Part shown: positions 7,117-35,080 of the stretch, piece after piece
Layout of the letters: the number at the start of each line of letters is the position of its first letter
How positions within the stretch are numbered: the stretch's first letter is position 1
Assembly (NCBI GenBank): GCA_024998625.1
Contig: JACOEL010000012.1
Location: 1 to 64,000, forward strand
Direction of reading: 5' to 3'
DNA: 64,000 bases
From: Nitrospira sp.
GTDB lineage: Bacteria; Nitrospirota; Nitrospiria; Nitrospirales; Nitrospiraceae
Program-made: the position numbers and the translations under genes
The notes under the pieces: generated by a model
Seen by the model: the letters and a program-made list of their open reading frames with translations, nothing else
The model's database searches: none
Told to the model about the DNA's origin: nothing

Positions 7117-8988
7117 ATGATTGTGCAACGATTGTGTGAAGAGTGCCCGCAGCCACCCGCCCGGAGGGGTTCTGCGAACGTCGGAACGGTAGCTCTTCTA
7201 CTGGTGGCTATATCCTGTGTCACCGCCGCCTGCCACAGCACGCCTCCTGCCCGTCCCGCTCCTGCTGCGGTCCCATCTGCCGTGCCGGTGGCTCCTCGTG
7301 CCATGCCTTCATCCTCCGATTCCCGCGCATCCTATCACTTTCTCCTCGGGTACCAAGCCGAGTTGGATCAGGAGACGGAACTGGCGATCAAGGAATATCA
7401 ACTCGCGCTGCAAACAGATCCTGCTTCGAATTATCTCAAAGCCAGGCTGGCCGTGCTCTACTTCACCGCGGGGGATGTGCCGTCGGCGGTACGTTTTGCG
7501 GATGAAGTGGCCGACGTGCCGGGGCTGGATGCGCAGATGCTGGGGCAAATCGGCGGCATGTATGCGGCCGCAGGCAAGCCCGACAAGGGGTTGAGACTGT
7601 TCAATCGTGCCATTGAGCAGGAACCTCAGCGTAGCGAGCATTTCTTTGCCAAGGGGCTGTTGCAAGCCAATCAGAAGCAATATGTTGAAGCCGAAGACAC
7701 GATTCGCGCTGGTATCAAGATCAGCCCGGACTCGGCAGTCGGGTACTACTATTTAGGTCGAATCGGGGTCGAAGCCAGAGATTTTGACAAGGCGACGACG
7801 CACTTTGAGCAGGCGGTGGCATTGAATCCGGCTTTCGAACCGGCGTACGTGGCCTTAGGGTCTGTCTATGAAGCCAAGCAGGATCGGGACAAGGCGATCG
7901 GGATCTATCGTCGCTACCTGCAGGGTGTGAATCCAAAAAATCGGGACATCCGGCATCACCTCATTCGCCTGCAAGTCTCGGCGAAGCAATACGACGAAGC
8001 GCTGCGGGAATTGCAGGAGATGTTGTCTGAGGATCCATCAGACCTCGACGCTCAGCTTCGGATGGGGCTCGTCTATGGGGAGCAGAAAGACTATCCCAAA
8101 GCCATTCAGCAGTTGAAACATATCCTCACGGTGCGGCCGGCGGAACTGAAAGTCCGTGACTACCTGGGGTATTTGTATGAGGAAACCAAGGATTACGCCA
8201 ATGCGATGGAGTCCTATCGTTACAATCTGACGCTGGAGCCTTCGTATTTCGAGGGACATCTGCATTTGGGTGTGCTGCAGTACCGGACCAAGCAGTATGC
8301 CGAAGCCATTCAGCACCTTCGCGAAGCCAGCCGGTTGAATCCCAAGCAACCGGAGGCCCATATCGTCCTGGGGTTGTCGCACTTTCAGGTCGAACAGTAT
8401 GAGCCTTCCCTCCAGGCGTTTCAGGAAGGGATTCGGCACAATCCGGACAATGCAGACCTGCATTTTAATGCGGGAACCGCGTATGACAAGCTGAACCGAT
8501 TCGACGATGTGGTGAAGTCCATGCAGACGACGCTCGCCTTGGATCCGCACCACGCCGATGCTATGAACTACCTGGGATATAGCTATGCAGAACGCGGCGT
8601 GAAGATCGAAGAGGCGATTGCGCTGACCAAGCAGGCCGTCGCCCTTCGACCGACCAATGGGTATTACGTCGATAGTCTGGCCTGGGCCTTTTTCAAGAAG
8701 GGCCTGCTGGCTGAAGCGCTGGCGGAGATGAAACGGGCGGTTGCGCTGGTCGGCGACGATCCCGTGATTTATGAACATCTCGGCGAAATCTACTTAAAGC
8801 AGCAACATCTCTCGGATGGTCGGGAAGCGCTCCTGCATTCGCTGGAACTGGATCCGTCCAACGACAAGCTGATGCAGCGATTCCGTGAACTGGGTTTAGG
8901 CGATCCCGCCAAAGAAGAACGCATTCGCCAGGCGCTCCGGCGCGTTTCAGATCGCAAGGGCGCCACTCCGGCTCCCGCTCAGCAGTAA
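7117..8988 (+). CDS. Tetratricopeptide-repeat lipoprotein
   Basis: A 623-residue protein made almost entirely of TPR helices. A basic N-terminus and hydrophobic segment lead to VTAAC, a lipobox with the acylated Cys at residue 39, followed by a Pro/Ala linker. From ~70 onward there are roughly fourteen TPR units, with recurrent patterns such as YLGRIGVEARDFDKA and HLGVLQYRTKQYAEA. It is probably a membrane-anchored periplasmic scaffold. Similar large TPR lipoproteins are found with outer-membrane assembly, secretion or pilus systems, and the pilus module follows, but no partner can be named. It has its own promoter at 7040-7069. The run of T at 8995-9002 just after the stop may help termination, though no convincing stem precedes it. 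Confidence 0.85.
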   Translation: MIVQRLCEECPQPPARRGSANVGTVALLLVAISCVTAACHSTPPARPAPAAVPSAVPVAPRAMPSSSDSRASYHFLLGYQAELDQETELAIKEYQLALQTDPASNYLKARLAVLYFTAGDVPSAVRFADEVADVPGLDAQMLGQIGGMYAAAGKPDKGLRLFNRAIEQEPQRSEHFFAKGLLQANQKQYVEAEDTIRAGIKISPDSAVGYYYLGRIGVEARDFDKATTHFEQAVALNPAFEPAYVALGSVYEAKQDRDKAIGIYRRYLQGVNPKNRDIRHHLIRLQVSAKQYDEALRELQEMLSEDPSDLDAQLRMGLVYGEQKDYPKAIQQLKHILTVRPAELKVRDYLGYLYEETKDYANAMESYRYNLTLEPSYFEGHLHLGVLQYRTKQYAEAIQHLREASRLNPKQPEAHIVLGLSHFQVEQYEPSLQAFQEGIRHNPDNADLHFNAGTAYDKLNRFDDVVKSMQTTLALDPHHADAMNYLGYSYAERGVKIEEAIALTKQAVALRPTNGYYVDSLAWAFFKKGLLAEALAEMKRAVALVGDDPVIYEHLGEIYLKQQHLSDGREALLHSLELDPSNDKLMQRFRELGLGDPAKEERIRQALRRVSDRKGATPAPAQQ

Positions 8989-9290
8989 TCCCTCTTTTTT
9001 TTCGCTTCATCGGGCATCCACGAACCGGGCTTCATCGCCTGCGGTCTTTCCACGCCCCGCACAAATCCTTTCCGTCTGGCGTCCCTCTCCCAGTCCTGAA
9101 TTGCCGGGACCGGCTGTCTCCTATTTGTTGGGAATGGGAGCCGTGACTGTTCGATTCCGTCAATTTTTGGCACTTTCTCTTCTGAATTCAGGCCTGCGGG
9201 GGACTGTCGGGCGGCAATCGCTGGGAGATCTAAAAGAAAAGATCAATATTGACGTGATCTTATCAATCTTACCGGCACTCGGCGGTTTCG
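8989..9290. other. Intergenic stretch upstream of the first pilin promoter
   Basis: About 300 bases between the TPR lipoprotein stop and the sigma-54 element at 9291. Short open frames exist but have no ribosome site or recognisable product. The second half is AT-richer (around 9228-9275), which would suit an activator or IHF site upstream of a sigma-54 promoter. No specific operator could be identified. Confidence 0.4.
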
Positions 9291-9306
9291 TGGCACAAGG
9301 CCTGCT
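9291..9306 (+). promoter_or_regulatory. Sigma-54 (-24/-12) promoter of the first pilin
   Basis: TGGCAC-AAGGC-CTGCT matches the sigma-54 consensus TGGCAC-N5-TTGCW at all but one position, with the invariant GG (9292-9293) and GC (9304-9305) exactly ten bases apart. Predicted transcription start is near 9316, about 70 bases before the pilin ATG at 9386. Pilin genes are well-known sigma-54 targets. Confidence 0.75.
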
Positions 9307-9385
9307 TATAGAGCCCATATCTGCAGGGCGTCGGTGGTGGGTGAGCAGGTAAATCGGTTTTTCAGGATGTCTGTGCCCAAGTTCC

Positions 9386-9913
9386 ATGCTGACTACATCG
9401 AAGCAACAAGGGTTCACGCTGATCGAATTGATGGTCGTGGTGGTGATTGTGGGAGTTCTCGCTGCGTTTGCCATCCCCAATTTTCTTCGATACCGGGCGC
9501 AGGCGATGCAGGCTGAGGCACGGTCGAACTTGGCGGGTATCTTCGTGGCAGAGACCTCGTTCTTCAGTGAGCGGAAAGAATATGGGAATTTTACAGATGT
9601 GGGCTTTGCCATCGCCGAAGGCGGGACGAACCGCTACACCTATCGGTCCGGTCTGGGAATTGGATCGGGGATGGGGCCGAACGGGGGCAATCTCTGTGGA
9701 CCGTCCAGCAGCTGTGACACGATTCAGACGGCGTCTCCGATGCCAGGGGCAATGACATATACGGGAGCGGTAGGTAGCGCGACGGCATCCGCCTCTGGAT
9801 TTACGGCCACCGCCGCAGCGGATCTCGATGGAGATGCCACGCATGACGGCTGGTATGTGAACGATGCGAAGCAGGGATTGAACGGGGCGGAGCCCAATGA
9901 TGTGTCGAGTTAG
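9386..9913 (+). CDS. Type IV major-pilin-like prepilin (copy 1)
   Basis: A 175-residue type IVa prepilin. A nine-residue leader ends in Gly (MLTTSKQQG). The cut site is G/FTLIE, giving a mature N-terminal Phe for methylation and the conserved Glu5, followed by a hydrophobic helix ([26 protein letters not shown]). The globular part has a Cys pair (NLCGPSSSC), a low-complexity Ser/Ala/Thr stretch and an acidic loop DLDGDATHDGW, and ends in PNDVSS. A peptidase such as PilD must cleave it; none is in the window. No strong ribosome site precedes the ATG, unlike copy 2. It is a paralogue of the next gene: leader, Cys pair, acidic loop and C-terminal Ser all correspond. Confidence 0.92.
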   Translation: MLTTSKQQGFTLIELMVVVVIVGVLAAFAIPNFLRYRAQAMQAEARSNLAGIFVAETSFFSERKEYGNFTDVGFAIAEGGTNRYTYRSGLGIGSGMGPNGGNLCGPSSSCDTIQTASPMPGAMTYTGAVGSATASASGFTATAAADLDGDATHDGWYVNDAKQGLNGAEPNDVSS

Positions 9914-10049
9914 TGAGAGCGCAAAACTTGTCAGAAGATGACGGAAAACGGAATGGAGTTCAGGCGGCGAGGCCAGAGGTTACGGACGGAATGGAGCTAA
10001 GTAAAGGAAATATAGAAGAAATGATAAGGAACTACAGGAAGGAGGTGTT

Positions 10050-10065
10050 GGGCATAGAATCTGCT
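10050..10065 (+). promoter_or_regulatory. Sigma-54 (-24/-12) promoter of the second pilin
   Basis: GGGCAT-AGAAT-CTGCT has the invariant GG (10051-10052) and GC (10063-10064) exactly ten bases apart. The -12 block CTGCT is identical to that of the first pilin promoter. Predicted start is near 10076, about 90 bases ahead of the ATG at 10167. Confidence 0.65.
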
Positions 10066-10166
10066 GTTCCCAAGATCTGCTAGGCTTGAAAAAAGCTGTG
10101 TCGTACGAAGAGGCAAGGGAGAAGAACGTGTCGTATGAAGTGGCAACATTAGGAAAGGGAGGAAGT

Positions 10167-10688
10167 ATGTTGAAGCAAATCAAGGGTCAAAAAGGTTTTA
10201 CGTTGATCGAGTTGATGATCGTTGTGGCGATCATCGGTATCTTGGCGGCCATCGCCATTCCGAACTTCTTGCGTTACCAGGCGAAGTCCCGGCAGTCTGA
10301 AGCCAAGACTAACCTGGGCGCGATTTTCGTGGCGGAGACGGCTTATCTCAGCGAAAATTCACGTTACGGAAGCTTCTCGGAGATCGGCTATGCTCTGGCC
10401 GGCACGACGAACCGGTATACGTATCGCAGCCCGGCGATCCTTGGTAACGCTGCATCGTCTAACACGGTGGGTGTCGACCAGATCCCCTGTGGCGCCCCGG
10501 TGGGTTGCACGGTTCAAACTGATGCGGCTCCCGCCGTGCCCTCTTTGGCCAGCTCGACGGCCGGGTCAGTTGGCTTCACCGCTTCGGCCGTGGCCAGCAT
10601 CGACAACGACCCGACGATCGATGGTTGGTCCGTCAATGATATCAAGGGCGGTCTGACCGTGGCGGTTCCTGACGACGTGATCAGCTAA
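10167..10688 (+). CDS. pilA: Type IV pilin PilA (copy 2)
   Basis: A 173-residue prepilin. The start at 10167 follows GGGAGGAAGT, a strong ribosome site, and gives a ten-residue leader ([10 protein letters not shown]) cut before [20 protein letters not shown]; Glu5 is present. A longer frame to 10086 would put 27 extra residues before a normal leader and is unlikely. The globular part has a Cys pair (IPCGAPVGC), an acidic loop [11 protein letters not shown] and the terminus PDDVIS. The better ribosome site and closer fit to the PilA consensus make this the likelier main subunit. It has its own sigma-54 element and an 11-bp terminator hairpin, so it is probably transcribed alone or together with copy 1. 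Confidence 0.95.
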
Positions 10689-10715
10689 CGATCAGTCGCA
10701 GGGCTTTTCAGAGAC

Positions 10716-10740
10716 GGGGGAGGAACCACGTTCCTCCCCC
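10716..10740 (+). terminator. Terminator after the pilin genes
   Basis: A perfect 11-bp GC-rich stem (10716-10726 with 10730-10740) closes a three-base loop and is followed by GCTTTCATT. It begins 27 bases after the pilA stop. The T tract is short, but stem strength and position support termination. Confidence 0.75.
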
Positions 10741-10905
10741 GCTTTCATTCCGGCTGACCGAGCAACCAATTCCGCGATCCATTCGCCGGCAGTCGCTCTA
10801 GCCGTTACCGCCTGCCCCGCCACAGTATTCAAATTCACTTTGCCAAATTGGGCTTGTCTGATAAAGCAGGAGATATCCGCTTCGGCAAGTGACCAAGACG
10901 TCGCT

Positions 10906-32868: not shown

Positions 32869-33247
32869 TTCATTCCCACATCCCGACAGTCAGCGTTTTC
32901 ACAGCTCAGTGCTGGTAGCGCAGCGTCTCCAGGCCTGCAGCCCTGTGACGGTCGTTGCTGCGTATCTCTTGTGACGTGGCCGTCATGGGCGATTCATCCG
33001 GCAGGGTGGACGTTGCGCATGCCTCGCTCCCAGTCGTCGAATCGACGACAAGCACTGAGATAGATCGGCGTTCAAGTCTGAACAACGATGAGGTGGTGGC
33101 GTACACCGGTCAAGGCTTAGCCGTCTTCCTCATATCTTGCTTGCCAAGTCAGGCCTGTTTTCTGTCGCGATTGAGGCGTAAATGCGGCGCGGCGGCATAG
33201 GGATTGCTCCCAGAGAGGAAAGGGAGAGACGCCGCGTCGTTGTACGT
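32869..33247. other. Intergenic stretch before the histidine kinase
   Basis: About 380 bases. Short open frames are present but have no good ribosome site or recognisable product. A short inverted repeat, CGTCGAATCGACGA, lies within 33036-33055. I could not define a convincing -10/-35 pair. It separates the polysaccharide genes from the signalling pair and probably carries the kinase promoter. Confidence 0.4.
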
Positions 33248-35080
33248 ATGACAAGACCTTCATCATCCTTTCTTGGCATGTCCCGTAGCAGCTACTCCCG
33301 GTTGGGAGTGGCCCTGGCGTTGATCGCGGTGATCGGCGCCATCGATTGGTGGTTGCCTCTGGGCCTGACCATCACGACTCTCTACGTCGTGCCGGTTCTC
33401 ATCGCTTCCCGGATCCCTTACCCTCGTCTCACGTTCTGGGTGGCCGCTCTGGCGTCCCTGGTGACGATCCTGGATATGTTCGATCAGCCGTTCTTTGCGT
33501 TGACCTGGGTCAGCGCCGTGAATCGGGCGTTTGCGCTCATGGTGATTTGGGTGACCGCGCTGTTGTGCTTGCGGCGGCAGCGCGACGAGGCCGAATTGTT
33601 GCGCATCAATGAAGATATCGAGCAACAGGTGCAGGAGCGCACGGCGGATCTGGCTGCCGCCAATCAGGAGCTTGAAGTGTTGCGGGCGGAAGCGGTGTCC
33701 GAACTGGTCGCGATCGTCAAATCGTCCGACGATGCCATTGTGGGCATGACGCTGAACGGCATGATTCAAAGTTGGAATCGGGGGGCGGAACGGGTCTACG
33801 GGTATCGCGCCGAGGAGGTGCTCGGCCGGCCCATCTCTGTGCTGTGTCCCCCGAATCGATTGGATGAAGTGCCGACCATGCTCGATCGGATTGCGCACGG
33901 CGAACATGTCCGCAATGTGGAGATGGTGCAGCGGCGGAAGCAGGGGGAGCGCATCGATGTGTCGTTGACGATCTCGCCGGTGAAAGATGTGGACGGCTGT
34001 GTCATGGGCGCGTCGGCCATCGCGCGCGATGTCACGGTGAAGCGGCGCATCGAGGCGGCGTTGCGGGAAAGTGAGGCCCGGTTTCGCATGATGGCGGACA
34101 CGGCTCCGGTGATGGTGTGGATGGCCGGGCCGGACACGCACATTACCTTTATCAATAAACGCTGGCTGGAATTCACCGGGCGCACCGTGCAGGAAGAGAT
34201 CGGCGACAACTGGTTTACAGGCATTCACACCGACGACCTGGACCGCTGTCGGAAGTCTTATCTGGAGGCGTTCAAGTCGGAGCAGCCGTTCTTTCTGGAA
34301 TACCGGCTGCGGCGTCATGACGGCGAGTACCGGTGGATCATGGATACGGGAGTGCCCTTGTTCGACGAGGAGGGACGGTTCGGCGGGTACATCGGGACCT
34401 GCATGGATCTGACCGAGCGCAAGGACATGGAAGACCAGCTCCGCCGGATGTTGAAGGAAAAAGAAAGTCTGCTGCGGGAAGTGCATCATCGGGTCAAGAA
34501 CAACCTGCAGGTCATTTCCAGCCTGTTGAATTTGCAATCGGCCTCCATCAAGGACCCGGTCGTCAATCAGCTGTTCCGCGAATGCCAGGTGCGGATCACC
34601 TCGATTGCGCTGCTTCACGAGACATTGCACCGCTCGCATGATCTTTCGCGAATCAAAATGGGCGACTACATCCGCACGTTGACCGGCCATCTCTTCCGAT
34701 CGTATGGGGTCGATCCGAACCTCATTTCACTGGAACTGAACGTAGACGATGTCGAGTTCGATATCGACACGGGGTTGACCTGCGGGTTGATCATCGATGA
34801 GCTGGTCTCCAATTGTTTGAAACACGCATTTATCGACGACAGCGGCGGAACGGTGCACATCGATCTGCTCGATCATGTCGACGGCACGTTTACCCTGTGC
34901 GTGAGCGACAACGGCATCGGGATTCCCAAGGACGGTGTGCTGAACAATCCCGATTCACTGGGGTTGGAACTGGTGACGCTGCTGGCGGAGAAGCTGGACG
35001 GCAGCACGGAACTCCGCAGTGGCGCCGGCACAGAATGGCAGATTCGCTTTCAGCAACTGCAATATTCAGAAAGGGTGTGA
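33248..35080 (+). CDS. Membrane-anchored PAS histidine kinase (HisKA_2 type)
   Basis: A ~610-residue sensor. Three to four membrane segments lie near the N-terminus (VALALIAVIGAIDWWLPLG, ITTLYVVPVLIASRI and following). A coiled-coil linker (RRQRDEAELLRINEDIEQQV) is followed by two PAS/PAC domains (~140-285 and ~285-400). The phosphoacceptor motif REVHHRVKNN near residue 411 marks the HWE/HisKA_2 class, and the ATPase domain has GLIIDELVSNCLKHAF and CVSDNGIGIP. The start is uncertain: ATG 33248 lacks a close ribosome site and ATG 33182 is in frame. The next gene is a response regulator, almost certainly its partner. Confidence 0.9.
   Translation: MTRPSSSFLGMSRSSYSRLGVALALIAVIGAIDWWLPLGLTITTLYVVPVLIASRIPYPRLTFWVAALASLVTILDMFDQPFFALTWVSAVNRAFALMVIWVTALLCLRRQRDEAELLRINEDIEQQVQERTADLAAANQELEVLRAEAVSELVAIVKSSDDAIVGMTLNGMIQSWNRGAERVYGYRAEEVLGRPISVLCPPNRLDEVPTMLDRIAHGEHVRNVEMVQRRKQGERIDVSLTISPVKDVDGCVMGASAIARDVTVKRRIEAALRESEARFRMMADTAPVMVWMAGPDTHITFINKRWLEFTGRTVQEEIGDNWFTGIHTDDLDRCRKSYLEAFKSEQPFFLEYRLRRHDGEYRWIMDTGVPLFDEEGRFGGYIGTCMDLTERKDMEDQLRRMLKEKESLLREVHHRVKNNLQVISSLLNLQSASIKDPVVNQLFRECQVRITSIALLHETLHRSHDLSRIKMGDYIRTLTGHLFRSYGVDPNLISLELNVDDVEFDIDTGLTCGLIIDELVSNCLKHAFIDDSGGTVHIDLLDHVDGTFTLCVSDNGIGIPKDGVLNNPDSLGLELVTLLAEKLDGSTELRSGAGTEWQIRFQQLQYSERV

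Follow-up and report, generated by a model that had tools for sequence, protein, structure and literature searches.

Nitrospira, nitrite oxidisers that are both widespread and hard to grow, have their home in flocs and biofilms, where pili plausibly matter. Within the stretch of 64,000 nucleotides analysed here (the window; contig C5 of a 4.42 Mb genome in 37 contigs, whose nearest named relatives are Nitrospira MAGs and Candidatus Nitrospira defluvii), two pilin genes stand in tandem. The initial annotation had proposed that each has its own sigma-54 promoter, and that the two might be expressed independently or in differing ratio. Are these promoters real, does one activator or do two serve them, and what sets the amounts of the two pilins?

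Two pilin genes and their -24/-12 elements

The features of the pair and its messages are as follows.

9291-9306, + strand: sigma-54 promoter of pilin 1, TGGCACAAGGCCTGCT, GG at 9292-9293 and GC at 9304-9305 (predicted by direct reading and conservation)
9386-9913, + strand: pilin 1, type IV prepilin of 175 aa, leader MLTTSKQQ then GFTLIEL (PF07963, 38.3 bits)
10050-10065, + strand: sigma-54 promoter of pilin 2, GGGCATAGAATCTGCT, GG at 10051-10052 and GC at 10063-10064 (predicted by direct reading and conservation)
10151-10162, + strand: strong Shine-Dalgarno of pilin 2, AGGAAAGGGAGG (from sequence and anti-Shine-Dalgarno energy)
10167-10688, + strand: pilin 2, type IV prepilin of 173 aa, leader MLKQIKGQK then GFTLIEL (PF07963, 39.8 bits)
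10715-10741, + strand: terminator-like hairpin after pilin 2, 12 pairs, strong

As annotated, each element precedes its own type IV prepilin gene: PF07963 is over its cut-off in both, and both proteins have the prepilin leader, the GFTLIE cleavage site and Glu5. The Pfam family Pilin_PilA (PF14245) stayed under its cut-off of 28.5 in both (20.6 and 27.8 bits). The solved structure nearest by sequence is 8tj2, 'Type IV major pilin protein PilA' (E 8.4e-37 for pilin 2 and 1.8e-26 for pilin 1); the predicted structures, with mean pLDDT of 43.9 and 48.3, are confident in the N-terminal helix only and too poor for comparison. Given that the neighbours are a TPR protein upstream and a Wzy_C O-antigen-ligase-like protein downstream, pilus genes do not flank the pair.

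Matches to pilin 2 occur in 59/61 relatives, and by our own count 26 of the 29 genomes of the genus keep both tandem genes intact, the exceptions being G004, which lost pilin 1, G012, in which pilin 1 is frameshifted, and G017, which has neither gene; in G010, pilin 2 runs off the contig end. The copy lost or broken in G004 and G012 is thus pilin 1. At the G004 locus (L125, 1000-1580), pilin 1, its promoter and its box (described below) are missing and the TPR gene is joined to the pilin-2 control region, where the box and promoter of pilin 2 remain in place. Mean identity over 24 species is 82.4% for pilin 1 and 81.5% for pilin 2, the two are 52% identical to each other, and in a quick tree they form separate branches (support 99 and 92). 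Since both pilins are equally conserved while the copies are only 52% identical, pilin 1 is a maintained gene. Judged from these sequences, we regard the locus as a pair of type IVa-like major pilin genes that has long stood in tandem in Nitrospira.

The -24/-12 elements can be read directly from the DNA, each with ten bases from GG to GC, and both end in the identical -12 block CTGCT, all of which agrees with the initial annotation; the base 5' of the GG is G, not T, in the pilin 2 promoter. The transcript of pilin 1, previously placed at a start near 9316, is predicted to begin at ~9317, within one base of that position, and that of pilin 2 near 10076. No sigma-70 promoter was found in 8950-10850 (0.9 expected).

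One strict -24/-12 match in a single genome is weak evidence, near chance. Over the 4.4 Mb of the genome, the strict pattern TGGCAYNNNNNYTGCW is matched 36 times versus 23 for a reversed-pattern control, and a loose pattern, GGNA-N7-TGCW, has 28 in the window versus 15.6 +/- 4.4 in shuffles. The strict site alone being so near background, it could be argued that the two elements are chance matches; however, this is contradicted by their conservation genus-wide and, at similar spacing, in other genera, and we find the idea scarcely credible. Because they are conserved across relatives, we accept the elements as more than chance, and conservation settles that the predicted sigma-54 promoters at both pilins are real. 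All 26 distinct pilin-1 upstreams contain TGGCAYRRGSYCTGCT, and all 26 pilin-2 upstreams contain a related site, GGGCAYAGAANCTGCT in 25 and AGGCACGGAAGCTGCT in G004. Over 27 rows and 203 bp upstream of pilin 1, 11/16 promoter columns are invariant versus 0/187 elsewhere, and the promoter is the best conserved 16-mer; for pilin 2, 14/16 promoter columns are invariant, within a longer conserved block (66/240 other columns invariant). A home-made promoter score, shaped on these loci, is 16.5 in 26/26 distinct pilin-1 upstreams and 15.5 in 26/26 pilin-2 upstreams across the genus, while a score of 14.5 is attained by 1.8%, and one of 15 by 0.65%, of shuffled 200-bp regions; as both the score and the upstream box were shaped on these loci, these genus counts are partly circular, and the tests free of that circularity are the other genera and the third promoter described below only.

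Indeed, sigma-54-like sites 50-145 bp before the pilin start also occur in other genera of the genome's own family (f1) and in a second family (f2). Among the pilins of f1 and f2, the second of G032 has a score of 13.5 and the third of G046 one of 10.5. Among the pilins of families f3 and f4, no promoter of score 14.5 or more was found in 16/16 genomes. This comparison kept 100 pilins. Rows identical in the last 120 upstream bases were dropped, so that neither L063 pilin 2 nor the genomes present again as genome_contigs copies were counted twice, as were rows whose upstream region was shorter than 190 bp or whose mature length fell outside 100-230; the frameshifted pilin 1 of G012, pilin 1 of G004, absent there, and both genes of G017, absent from the assembly, are likewise omitted, and f2 is covered by 7/8 genomes (G055 left out). 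At one locus of G046 (L114, 1080-2993, reverse strand of the fetched stretch) there are three tandem pilins, the first two with sigma-54 sites and the third with neither a sigma-54 site nor a ribosome site.

A shared upstream box and the candidate regulators

Upstream of the promoters, and elsewhere in the genome, the following features were noted.

9159-9171, unstranded: candidate PilR enhancer, box of pilin 1, GTCAATTTTTGGC, 132 bp before the first base of the promoter
9920-9932, unstranded: box of pilin 2, CGCAAAACTTGTC, 7/8 match, 130 bp upstream
10036-10049, + strand: near-invariant block AGGAAGGAGGTGTT, touching the -24 element of pilin 2
L131 12301-12918 (C14:56300-56917): third candidate PilR promoter, box and promoter before a pilin-like gene

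The palindrome GNCAA-N3-TTGNC lies ~130 bp upstream of both pilin promoters and is also found in other genera. Before pilin 1 it matches strictly (8/8) in 26/26 genus loci (shuffles 0.6%), its edge lying 131-133 bp from the promoter; when a longer block is taken as the reference, the core stands at 147-149 bp in 27 loci. Before pilin 2 the distance is mostly 130 bp, with at least 7/8 in 26/26 loci (shuffles 5.5%) and 8/8 in 12 (shuffles 0.08%); the box is imperfect at the window's own pilin 2, where a second dyad, GTCA-N5-TGAC at 9930-9942, overlaps it and the conserved block reads CAAAACTTGTCA-N5-TGACGGAAAA. In most other genera of the own family the box stands at 128-131 bp, and in the second family at 85-87 and 105-108 bp. 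These clusters, about two helical turns apart, would fit an enhancer that must face the polymerase. Beyond the genus, other sigma-54-positive pilins have at least 7/8 of the box in 15/21 cases (shuffles 6.8%) and lack it in 6/21, versus 1/27 with a box among sigma-54-negative pilins (shuffles 6.0%), the two groups being split at a score of 13.5. The f3 and f4 pilins have no box but for isolated 7-of-8 matches. Outside families f1-f4, the loci L209, L211 and L212 have sigma-54-like sites without the box; at L211 and L212 (about 3001), which hold distant Nitrospirota pilins, the sites are strong, and the missing GNCAA-N3-TTGNC suggests a different activator site.

Of 55 sigma-54-like sites checked in the portions of the genome examined, only two have a perfect box within 200 bp, namely pilin 1 and C14:56410-56425. 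The latter precedes a pilin-like gene, before which lies a gene for a PilB/GspE-like ATPase. Its box and promoter are kept in 21/21 genomes examined (our own and 20 further genomes with a homolog), at 110-111 bp (17 at 8/8 and 4 at 7/8); if the conserved ATG is the start, this promoter is only ~31 bp from it. Genome-wide, the strict box occurs at 8 places (control 3), near 3 of which a sigma-54-like site scores at least 14 and near 5 of which none does; the site by the box at C17:128482 looks like chance.

The initial annotation had called for a scan of the genome for rpoN and pilS/pilR, and both are there. A single rpoN copy (PF04552, E 1.7e-56) lies on C29, and a PilS-PilR pair lies on C25, within a pilC-pilS-pilR operon on a separate contig from the pilins (PilC being named from sequence and position, not by family search). 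The kinase has the PilS-type transmembrane domain PF25323 at 65.7 bits (cut-off 27) and is the only kinase over that cut-off; the activator adjoining it (C25:293409-294785) is a REC-AAA-HTH protein (PF00072, PF00158, PF02954). The gene order pilC-pilS-pilR was found in 11/11 loci inspected in f1 and f2 (our own and ten other genomes; at the G029 locus, where a kinase regex missed, PilS is taken from the PilS profile), and the PilR helix-turn-helix is nearly identical in 10/11, those in which it is not cut off. Searching for pilins beside pilSR in other genera, we found no activator or kinase motif in 10 loci of 19-20 kb.

Among the 61 relatives, rpoN is present in 58, including all 16 genomes of the PilS-less families f3 and f4. 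PilS is present in 43/61 (f1 35/37, f2 8/8, f3 0/12, f4 0/4); the two f1 genomes lacking PilS, G034 and G035, show no match to a pilin either. A PilR ortholog at E 1e-170 is found in 41/61 genomes and in none of f3 or f4, with G037 (PilR seen at its inspected locus) and the 66%-complete G028 under the cut; this distribution was profiled for one activator only, PilR, among the 36 PF00158 matches of the genome. Pilin sigma-54 promoters thus co-occur with pilC-pilS-pilR, and the f3/f4 pilins without such promoters belong to genomes that have RpoN and no PilS or PilR ortholog. Since this co-occurrence follows clades, it may reflect one or two evolutionary events.

A second sigma-54 activator ends the window. 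The earlier caution that it cannot be assigned as the pilin regulator stands: its domains are REC-AAA-HTH_8, a DUF1015 gene lies next to it, and a search for histidine-kinase motifs up to 2.5 kb away found none. It is not the PilS partner, the activator linked to PilS being the one on C25. Elsewhere in the window, 33182-35080 encodes a histidine kinase (PAS-PAS-HisKA_2) of which one stretch weakly resembles PilS (17.5 bits, below the cut-off), and a GG-N10-GC site (33194-33208) lies near the start of its reading frame.

Two further stretches near the pilin promoters deserve mention. Over 10036-10100, the 14-base G-rich block 5' of the -24 element and some 20 bases 3' of the -12 element of pilin 2 are near-invariant genus-wide, which neither RNA fold nor reading frame explains. 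RNA structure gave no signal in either leader (z -0.15 and +0.90), a leader peptide over AGGAGGTGTTGGGC was ruled out by reading, as its conservation is not codon-like, and an in-frame upstream extension giving a long form of pilin 2 was rejected on account of L052, L060 and L062, in which the spacing to the ATG does not keep the frame. Some 50 bp 5' of the pilin-1 promoter, a second dyad-like and loosely conserved stretch, GATCAATATTGACG at 9241-9254, may be the site of a second activator or of a bending protein.

A probable shared activator, two promoters and a possible ratio set by translation

Where the two genes contrast is in their translation signals. Pilin 1 is without a Shine-Dalgarno in 26/26 loci (mean anti-Shine-Dalgarno energy -1.8 kcal/mol, -5.8 to 1.9, n=26), and pilin 2 has a strong one in 26/26 (mean -11.3 kcal/mol, -11.3 to -10.7, n=26), which suggests that the second gene probably makes most of the protein. 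In L045, L063 and L064 no more than 34-36 bp separate the pilin-1 promoter from the ATG, so the leader would be about ten bases. A terminator search of the region found 2 sites, with 1.8 expected in shuffles; no terminator-like site was found between pilin 1 and pilin 2, and therefore the first promoter may also feed pilin 2.

We consider it likely that PilS/PilR and RpoN co-activate both pilins from separate promoters via the shared box, with pilin 2 as the main subunit. PilS would phosphorylate PilR, which would bind the predicted site GNCAA-N3-TTGNC at both pilins and loop to RpoN polymerase at both promoters, so that the pilins would be switched on or off together. RpoN polymerase would transcribe each pilin from its own promoter, and pilin 2 possibly from promoter 1 as well. 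Output would diverge after transcription start, the strong ribosome site making pilin 2 the main subunit and its lack making pilin 1 a second subunit of lower dose, and both may assemble in one filament. The independent expression proposed earlier is not indicated, given that the two promoters have the same palindromic box at almost equal distances, a sign of one shared activator. A differing ratio, also proposed, remains plausible through the translation signals, though not through separate regulators.

Were different activators to drive the two promoters, the pilins would be expressed under different conditions. The boxes are indeed not identical in sequence detail or in orientation, conserved blocks found at pilin 2 (AGGAAGGAGGTGTT and GTCA-N5-TGAC) are absent at pilin 1, and the genome has 36 PF00158 matches; yet the same palindrome at about the same distance recurs at both promoters and at the third one, and the f3/f4 pilins that lack promoters and boxes are likewise without PilS and PilR, for which reason we hold separate activators to be unlikely. 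The box might instead belong to another regulator, either a sigma-54 activator or a DNA-bending protein, with PilR acting elsewhere. A profile match of the same kind is known for a different activator, PrsR of the PEP-CTERM system (PMC1569441, in the part available), and only one activator was profiled here; against this stand the pilC-pilS-pilR linkage, the PilS profile over 61 genomes and the conserved helix-turn-helix, and we regard this reading as rather unlikely.

A further view is that a single promoter is relevant, that of pilin 1 giving a two-gene message and the second element being accessory. It would agree with the missing terminator-like site between the genes and the strong one after pilin 2. 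However, the second promoter equals the first in conservation (14/16 invariant columns), it is kept in G004 where pilin 1 is deleted, and such a promoter also precedes the pilin 2-like gene found alone in the stretches fetched from G029 and G033; we consider a single relevant promoter very improbable. Joint activation by PilR from both promoters is the reading that we prefer. An extension of it, doubtful but worth stating, is that pilus composition is fixed by design: one activator, matching phased boxes and a translation-set ratio would yield a two-subunit copolymer with a constant minority of pilin 1, and the conserved lack of a ribosome site would hold pilin 1 at low dose.

For Nitrospira, the outcome is a pilus regulon open to test: its candidate activator has a name, its binding site is predicted, and its target promoters number three. 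The pilin pair itself has long been kept, with transcription signals that match and translation signals that contrast.

Relation to known pilin systems

Our literature search found no description of sigma-54 pilin promoters in Nitrospira, of the GNCAA-N3-TTGNC box, or of two pilins each with its own sigma-54 promoter. Two related major-type pilins at one locus are known from Legionella pneumophila, pilA1/pilA2, although there they are ~72% identical, compared with 52% in Nitrospira (PMC13170364). Only PilA2 was seen on the surface and PilA1 is obscure; pilSR is present, and pilA2 mRNA was slightly, not significantly, lower in a pilR mutant. The available part of that paper describes no paired sigma-54 promoters for pilA1/pilA2.

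The PEP-CTERM PrsK-PrsR system similarly combines an upstream activator motif and a -24/-12 element with a distribution matching the kinase-activator pair, albeit with different genes, kinase and activator, as far as the accessible text of PMC1569441 describes it. The NmpR boxes of Myxococcus xanthus are also bound by an NtrC-like activator and form a dyad of similar size (GCGCA-N5-TGCGC), whereas their sequence and targets differ (PMC11841059, seen in part).

PilSR/RpoN control of pilA is itself classical and already known (PMC2725144 and PMC6058289, from the parts available). In G. sulfurreducens, pilA has a PilR-regulated RpoN promoter and lies immediately downstream of pilR (PMC2725144). 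In P. aeruginosa, the PilR site is marked by TGT-N11-AGA and GTCT (PMC6058289); Nitrospira has the GNCAA-N3-TTGNC box in their place, TGT-N11-AGA being absent before both window pilins and found in 4/26 and 3/26 genus loci. We take these hallmarks to be a feature of the P. aeruginosa site and not of the whole family, so that filing the Nitrospira genes as PilSR/RpoN-controlled pilins rests on PilSR, RpoN and the promoter. With the PilS-PilR/RpoN systems of Pseudomonas aeruginosa, Geobacter sulfurreducens and Myxococcus xanthus, Nitrospira shares a sigma-54 pilin promoter, a PilS-type kinase and a PilR-type activator; unlike them, it has two pilin genes with one promoter each, on another contig than pilSR.
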